A stretch of DNA of 15,853 nucleotides from Clostridia bacterium (lineage in GTDB: Bacteria > Bacillota_A > Clostridia > Christensenellales > Aristaeellaceae). A model generated the notes under the pieces. That model had not been told where the DNA came from, made no database searches, and saw only the letters and a program-made list of their open reading frames with translations. The position numbers and the translations under genes were made by a program. This document shows positions 2,433-2,717 of the stretch, piece after piece; positions within the stretch are counted from its first letter, which is position 1, and the number at the start of each line of letters is the position of its first letter. The stretch is from the NCBI GenBank assembly GCA_017517815.1, contig JAFWYA010000070.1, positions 1-15,853 on the forward strand, given 5' to 3'.

Positions 2433-2717
2433 ATGCTGGAACTCGCTATTGGTATCATTCTCGCTGGCTGCGCCATCGGCGCCGGTCTCGCCCTGATCGC
2501 TGGTATCGGCCCTGGTATCGGTGAAGGCAACGCTGTTTCCAAGGCTTGCGAAGCCATCGGCCGTCAGCCTGAAAGCAAGGGCTCCGTGACCTCTACCATG
2601 ATCATGGGCTGCGCTATCGCAGAAACCACGGGTCTTTACGGTCTGGTCATCGGCATCCTGCTGATCTTCGTGGCTCCCAACATGTTTGTCAACATCCTGC
2701 TGAACGCCATCAAGTAA
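2433..2717 (+). CDS. atpE: F-type ATP synthase subunit c (rotor ring)
   Basis: Rotor-ring subunit of 94 residues, a hairpin of two transmembrane helices joined by the polar loop RQPESKG (44-50). Helix 1 carries the glycine-rich packing motif (GAGLALIAGIGPGIG, 16-30). Helix 2 carries the ion-binding carboxylate Glu64 within CAIAETTGLYG (60-70). Glu31 occupies the helix-1 position that is Gln in the Ilyobacter Na+ rotor, and Thr65, Thr66 and Tyr69 match the Na+-binding motif. The ring is therefore predicted to be of the two-carboxylate, sodium-type class. The start is the ATG at 2433, placed 9 bases after TAAGGAGG (2417-2423 plus flank). An upstream in-frame ATG at 2385 lacks such a site and would add a non-family extension. 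Confidence 0.95.
   Translation: MLELAIGIILAGCAIGAGLALIAGIGPGIGEGNAVSKACEAIGRQPESKGSVTSTMIMGCAIAETTGLYGLVIGILLIFVAPNMFVNILLNAIK

Follow-up and report, generated by a model that had tools for sequence, protein, structure and literature searches.

The stretch of DNA analysed here (15,853 nt, hereafter the window) encodes a complete F1Fo ATP synthase whose rotor subunit c carries one carboxylate in each of its two helices. This enzyme probably couples to Na+ under gut conditions, a reading to which we assign a probability of about 0.8. It is based on the residues of the c subunit, their alignment and conservation, the operon, the residue pattern of the stator a subunit and the ion pumps encoded in related genomes.

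The ATP Synthase Operon and Its c Subunit

The atp operon is complete, with its genes in the order AtpI-like, a, c, b, delta, alpha, gamma, beta, epsilon. The features are:

1021..1488, + strand: AtpI-like protein (ATP synthase I chain), first gene of the operon; Pfam PF03899, 34.1 bits (cut-off 25.1)
1495..2349, + strand: subunit a (stator ion channel); NCBIfam F0F1 ATP synthase subunit A, best score 161.6 bits, below the curated cut-off of every model listed; a-subunit relatives in the PDB; column comparison
2418..2424, + strand: ribosome-binding site aaggagg of the c subunit, read in the sequence
2433..2717, + strand: F-type ATP synthase subunit c with a two-carboxylate site of predicted Na+ type (Glu31, Ile62 backbone, Glu64, Thr65, Thr66, Tyr69); translation, alignment, TIGR01260, conservation
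2523..2525, + strand: Glu31 codon (GAA), helix-1 carboxylate equivalent to Fusobacterium nucleatum Glu32; alignment, conservation
2622..2639, + strand: codons Glu64 to Tyr69 (ETTGLY), helix-2 part of the site; translation, alignment, conservation
2743..3252, + strand: subunit b; TIGR01144, 101.2 bits
3249..3785, + strand: subunit delta; TIGR01145, 96.8 bits
3799..5322, + strand: subunit alpha; TIGR00962, 811.3 bits
5341..6189, + strand: subunit gamma; TIGR01146, 285.2 bits
6217..7614, + strand: subunit beta; TIGR01039, 856.9 bits
7617..8018, + strand: subunit epsilon; TIGR01216, 95.6 bits

Translation of 2433–2717 (+) gives a protein of 94 amino acids with the motifs GPGIGEGNA and AIAETTGLYG, in which P27, E31, I62, A63, E64, T65, T66 and Y69 occupy the positions indicated; an earlier note on this DNA had correctly read Glu31 in the first motif and Glu64, Thr65, Thr66 and Tyr69 in the second. 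The ATG at 2433 is preferred over the TTG at 2385 of the open reading frame list because AAGGAGG precedes it. The protein scores 62.8 bits with TIGR01260 (ATP synthase F0 subunit C; cut-off 43.95) and lies inside the atp operon. It contains the ligand set of Na+-type F rotors of the Ilyobacter tartaricus kind, namely Gln or Glu in helix 1 and Glu, Ser or Thr, a polar residue and Tyr in helix 2. The non-polar residues that would take the place of the hydroxyls in a two-carboxylate H+ rotor are absent, both Thr65 and Thr66 being present.

Comparison with Rotors of Known Structure

The best matches of the c subunit among PDB sequences are the rotors of Acetobacterium woodii (4bem), F. nucleatum (3zk1) and I. 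tartaricus (1yce), aligned with no gap through the ion site; all three are counted as Na+-coupled in PMC3692424. Residues 7–83 of the window protein align without gaps with residues 8–84 of 3zk1, and Glu31, Ile62, Ala63, Glu64, Thr65, Thr66 and Tyr69 fall on F. nucleatum Glu32, Val63, Ala64, Glu65, Ser66, Thr67 and Tyr70. Over these 77 residues the window shares with the F. nucleatum Na+ c11 rotor (3zk1, 3zk2; PMC3692424) the helix-1 Glu and the helix-2 Glu followed by a hydroxyl residue, Thr and then Tyr. The parallel that the earlier note had drawn with the two-carboxylate variant of F. nucleatum is therefore upheld by the alignment, which places Glu31 on Glu32 of a solved Na+ rotor, inside the ion site and not outside it. 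The window differs from F. nucleatum in Thr65 for Ser66 and Ile62 for Val63, which are small departures, and in Asn33 for Tyr34.

The c2 subunit of A. woodii (75 residues ungapped) has the helix-2 stretch AETTG(I/L)YG, with Glu, Thr, Thr and Tyr identical to those of the window. Unlike the window, it has Gln in helix 1, and A. woodii possesses an extra c1 subunit of 182 residues with two matching stretches, whereas the window operon has a single c gene for one hairpin. The I. tartaricus Na+ c11 rotor has the same ligand positions and glycine motif but Gln32 for Glu31 and Ser66 for Thr65. Its equivalents Gln32, Glu65, Ser66, Thr67 and Tyr70 had been assigned correctly in the earlier note, the two-residue gap in the alignment lying only near the C-terminal end. 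The motif GxGxGxG of the window agrees with both 1yce and 3zk1. The H+ c ring of spinach chloroplasts (2w5j) is built from a homologous hairpin that has the Glu and Tyr of helix 2 and, in helix 1, a polar residue (Gln), but its residues opposite Thr65 and Thr66 are Ala and Leu. As judged from these alignments, the window protein is an F. nucleatum-like helix 1 joined to an A. woodii-like helix-2 site.

Predicted Ion Site and Its Ion Preference

In the F. nucleatum crystal described in PMC3692424, Glu32, Glu65, the hydroxyl of Ser66, the carbonyl of Val63 and a water fixed by Thr67 and Ala64 bind Na+, and Glu65 is held by Tyr70 and Ser66. The helix-1 Glu is described there as protonated while Na+ is bound, its H+ not being co-transported, a view argued from structure, simulation and vesicles (PMC3692424). 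The ligand roles are taken from that account. For the window we infer how the site is arranged, that Glu31 is protonated, that Na+ is the ion used physiologically, and which pumps its own genome encodes. The ion sites would lie between neighbouring c subunits of the assembled ring. Glu31 and Glu64 would each offer a carboxylate to Na+, Thr65 its hydroxyl, Ile62 its backbone carbonyl and Thr66 a bound water, with Glu64 locked in a closed position by Tyr69 and Thr65. Glu31 would stay protonated and share its proton with Glu64, acting like the Gln of other Na+ rotors, so that only Na+ would be carried. The Na+ gradient that drives such a rotor would be made by an Rnf complex and Na+-pumping decarboxylases.

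A different possibility is that Na+ or a second H+ is bound with similar likelihood in the gut and that both drive the enzyme. Gut pH can be mildly acid, which on general grounds would favour H+. Use of both ions is reported for the ring of Methanosarcina acetivorans, which is predicted to have two glutamates, and the F. nucleatum ring is described as intrinsically preferring H+ (both from PMC3692424). Na+ ATPases are also stated to be able to move H+ in the absence of Na+ (PMC2359735). Each side-chain ligand position of the proven Na+ rings is nevertheless filled by a fitting residue in the window, including Thr65, Thr66 and Tyr69, and we consider dual use of the two ions unlikely.

Conservation among Near Relatives

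A scan of one genome per species yielded at least 592 pattern matches; at least 496 of them code for a relative, and the analysis used the best 80. In these 80 nearest loci (best 80 of at least 496), which belong to Clostridia, often from ruminants, E31, A63, E64, T65, T66 and Y69 are kept without exception (80/80), and at position 62 I (49 loci), V (27) or L (four) is found. The codons of Glu31, Glu64, Thr65, Thr66 and Tyr69 vary synonymously in the same best 80 of at least 496, Glu31 being GAA in 69 and GAG in 11. Since the residues are kept in 80/80 nearest loci while their codons vary, the ion site is not a product of chance.

The protein database gave 7,939 matches, of which the best 120 were listed, and an identical protein is among them (P0002, source ena only), encoded on a single contig of 17,092 bases; the window accordingly seems to be a metagenomic contig. 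In the 119 others of the best 120 of 7,939, position 31 is Glu in 118 and Asp in one, Glu64 and Tyr69 are found in all 119, and Thr65 and Thr66 in 118 each. Both the 80 loci and the 120 proteins were chosen by similarity and show fixation among relatives, being no unbiased census. The nearest relative by c subunit among the matches listed (L001) has 95% identity in this protein, and it does not belong to the same species as the window because the operon DNA is only 77% identical.

The c subunit also has three cysteines, C13, C39 and C60 (2469–2471, 2547–2549 and 2610–2612), that are invariant in the 80 nearest loci (best 80 of at least 496), C60 lying approximately one helical turn ahead of Glu64.

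Rotor Types in the Class and the Stator a Subunit

A class-wide sample comprised 291 genomes, 178 of them with a match, and the best c subunit was read for 110 (30 + 80 loci). The other 68 matching genomes, G190 and 67 with weaker matches, were left out, so ligand-poor rotors are probably under-counted. A helix-1 Glu with Ser or Thr after the helix-2 Glu was found in 36/110 and a helix-1 Gln with Ser or Thr in 52/110, while 17/110 had Ala after the helix-2 Glu and Ile or Thr in helix 1 (Ala65-type) and 5/110 were of other types. L108, which carries an insertion, was counted as Glu at position 31, its protein reading GPGIGEG. Thr66 and Tyr69 are present in all 17 Ala65-type c subunits. This group was taken as H+-type by assumption, having no Gln or Glu in helix 1 and no hydroxyl at position 65.

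The a subunit of the window has the conserved Arg202 and, as in the Gln-type (Na+-signature) Clostridia, Gly191, Glu192, Ala194, Gly210, Thr215 and Ser258. The columns compared were picked by contrast of 43 Gln-type with 17 Ala65-type sequences (14 of them distinct), Glu-type sequences being excluded, and 11 columns passed. On these columns the window scores +15.2, within the range of the Gln-type (+6.7 to +34.2, n = 43), against −37.4 to −21.2 for the Ala65-type (n = 17). At the strongest of these columns the window agrees with the Gln-type: the Ala65-type sequences have Glu in place of the window Gly191 in 17/17, Glu or Asp in place of Thr215 in 17/17 and Asp in place of Ser258 in 17/17, and Glu192 and Ala194 each occur in 0/17 of them; at columns 164, 272 and 276 the letter of the window also occurs in the Ala65 group. 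Among the 114 Glu-type a subunits, the window included, only L204 scores below zero (−6.5), and of the four others only L191 does (−2.3). By sequence, the a subunit of the window has the column states of the Gln-type and not of the Ala65-type, a contrast that is confounded with common descent.

The tree of a subunits was built from 178 sequences, some genomes being represented twice, of which 165 are distinct over the last 150 residues (Glu-type 104/114, Gln-type 43/43, Ala65-type 14/17, other 4/4). L014 (an enolase reading frame) and L067 (lacking the motif) were dropped from this set, L014 having still been included in an earlier tree, and three short fragments of 158–164 amino acids were retained. 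Ten of the 110 class loci yielded no a subunit. The window falls within a group of 110 Glu-type sequences (100 of them distinct; support 0.83), 109 of which group at support 1.0. The sister group consists of 23 Gln-type and three Glu-type sequences (L171, L178 and L193), the joining node having a support of 0.178, and L204, although of Glu-type, is placed among the Ala65-type rotors. The deep branches are weakly supported and the two trees place some Glu-type outliers differently, which limits what they say on the direction and number of the Gln/Glu changes. On this evidence Glu31 marks a large clade and the two-carboxylate site is the rule across a large gut lineage, which is a modest new point.

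Two members of the class with a helix-1 Glu, L204 and L193, have otherwise unusual sites (EITESN and EITEST). The first may be a two-carboxylate H+ or mixed rotor, since its a subunit scores towards the Ala65 type. The Ala65-type Clostridia themselves (17 loci, L181–L203) combine Ala-Thr after the helix-2 Glu with a subunits that are acidic at window columns 191, 215 and 258.

Residues Bearing on the Probable Sodium Coupling

The second carboxylate was rejected as a sufficient marker of Na+ coupling, given that the chloroplast H+ ring has Gln at its place and that two-carboxylate H+ rings have been reported. A constitutively protonated Glu is argued to affect selectivity largely as Gln does, and the same source names H+ enzymes that have two carboxylates (PMC3692424). 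The earlier note had inferred Na+ coupling from the motif; this inference is strengthened by the alignment, the a-subunit pattern and the pumps of the relatives, and the weight that it laid on the second carboxylate has to be withdrawn, Glu alone being no sign of Na+. Thr66 was likewise discarded as a sufficient marker within Clostridia, being present in 17/17 Ala65-type c subunits, an observation that slightly lowers our confidence in Na+ coupling. Thr65 is the better sign of Na+ because the Ala65-type rotors still have Thr66.

According to a rule in print since 2008, the Na+ set consists of Gln or Glu32, Glu65 and Ser or Thr66 (the place of window Thr65), and the position of window Thr66 is aliphatic in predicted H+ rotors (PMC2359735). 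By this rule the window is predicted to be of Na+ type. The rule does not appear clean in the sequences compared here: the Ala65-type Clostridia have Thr66 and would not be read as H+ by what PMC2359735 gives for that place, yet they lack the helix-1 Gln or Glu and the hydroxyl at position 65.

These same positions bear on a further alternative, in which the rotor is H+-coupled as in Mycobacterium and Streptococcus, the second Glu tuning the pKa or sensing pH and Na+ having no role. The two-carboxylate H+ rings of these genera are not known to have hydroxyls at the places where hydroxyls bind Na+. Two-carboxylate H+ rings have been reported and a role as pH sensor was proposed earlier (PMC3692424), which speaks for the alternative. 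The window, however, has Thr65 and Thr66 where the chloroplast H+ ring has Ala and Leu, the predicted H+ rotors of PMC2359735 (section 6) are aliphatic at the place of Thr66, and columns 191, 215 and 258 of the a subunit, acidic in the Ala65-type Clostridia, are not acidic in the window. We regard a purely H+-coupled rotor as very improbable.

Ion Pumps in Related Genomes

A Na+ gradient is likely to exist in the relatives, as judged from their gene content. Among the matches listed, the 13 nearest genomes encode Rnf/Nqr in 13/13 and a Na+ decarboxylase beta subunit in 12/13, and neither NuoH/Ech nor a membrane pyrophosphatase was matched in any of them (0/13 each); the lack of a NuoH/Ech-family match in these genomes counts against the use of both ions considered above. 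In the 36 genomes with near relatives the corresponding counts are Rnf/Nqr 27 (including G014, a fragment with a stop, and G020, a weak match), Na+ decarboxylase beta 31, NuoH/Ech 2 and membrane pyrophosphatase 7. Rnf/Nqr or a Na+ decarboxylase is present in 36/36, in G020 by the weak Rnf/Nqr match only, its rnfC being far under the cut-off. The rnfC gene scores above the cut-off in 24 of the 27 genomes tested and in 12 of the 13 nearest, and is split over two contigs in G011. In G004 the Rnf genes stand in the order rnfC, D, E, A, B, and an operon of G001 encodes a carboxyltransferase, a biotin carrier, the beta subunit of a Na+ pump and an oxaloacetate decarboxylase alpha subunit.

These pumps were set aside as a means of telling the kinds of rotor apart, Rnf/Nqr and Na+ decarboxylase being too common in the class and NuoH/Ech rare in all types. 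Class-wide, Rnf/Nqr is found in 212/291 genomes, Na+ decarboxylase beta is matched in 217/291 (215 above the cut-off) and NuoH/Ech is found in 39/291. The Ala65-type genomes have Rnf/Nqr in 15/17 and Na+ decarboxylase in 14/17 (counted by hand), and NuoH/Ech occurs in 5/36 Glu-type, 1/52 Gln-type, 4/17 Ala65-type and 1/5 other genomes. The Na+ pump families, common both in the class and in the Ala65-type genomes, are therefore silent on which ion the ATP synthase uses.

No Rnf/Nqr match was found in Ruminococcaceae bacterium YRB3002 (L061, G032), YAD3003 (L063, G034) and AB4001 (L065, G035), in which the ion site is kept. Their candidate Na+ pumps are a Na+ decarboxylase, with one beta gene per genome, and a membrane pyrophosphatase, also present once in each.

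The RnfD of G004 (L208:2765–4051) is 428 amino acids long owing to an inserted repeated stretch rich in DAVxxAT-like units, and no reading frame for rnfG was found between rnfD and rnfE of this genome. By eye these units resemble the protein's own flavin-attachment region. RnfG-like FMN-binding domains occur in several copies in long frames of about 500–1,050 amino acids in G002, G006, G008, G010, G013 and G033, which suggests multi-flavin proteins; in G002, G006, G008, G010 and G033 such frames are also found on the rnfC contig.

Implications for Gut Clostridia

The choice between Gln and Glu had been published by 2008, and the two-carboxylate rotor followed in 2013. In the open-access literature searched by titles and the starts of abstracts, subscription journals being mostly outside it, a two-carboxylate rotor in these Clostridia was not found, and supplementary alignments may list such sequences. 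A related idea, ATP synthesis driven by Rnf and Ech, has been proposed for rumen butyrivibrios, another group (PMC4478896). Our data suggest that ATP is made from a Na+ gradient in a large group of gut Clostridia, many of which have been seen in ruminant metagenomes only. Rnf and Na+ decarboxylases could feed this gradient, a point of relevance to energy yields in the rumen. In a large clade the norm is the two-carboxylate site whose structure was solved in F. nucleatum, with Gln-type rotors in other Clostridia of the same class. The presence of both in one class makes the effect of the Gln/Glu difference testable by comparison.

It is also conceivable, although quite unlikely in our estimate, that the replacement of Gln by Glu, once fixed in this lineage, yielded not a plain Na+ rotor but one that alternates between Na+ and H+ depending on pH or salt. 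If this were true, the Glu31 clade would form a natural series on the role of the second carboxylate.

Other Features of the Window

Na+ riboswitches have been tied to ATP synthase genes (PMC9337991). Neither the window nor L001, L003, L004, L010 and L014 gave a match at or above the cut-off of any Rfam family, and support of this kind for Na+ coupling is missing in these sequences.

A row of sugar-transferase, nucleotidyltransferase and NAD-dependent epimerase genes at 10919–14429 (+), downstream of the atp operon, is probably an envelope-polysaccharide set. The opposite strand encodes, at 10004–10771 (−), a nucleotidyltransferase with an AadA C-terminal domain (PF13427, PF01909), a relative of aminoglycoside adenylyltransferases. 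At 14545–15720 (−) lies a gene for an acidic protein of 391 amino acids, which gave no Pfam match and is built of tandem repeats rich in Glu and Thr (TEEEEVEETPA...).
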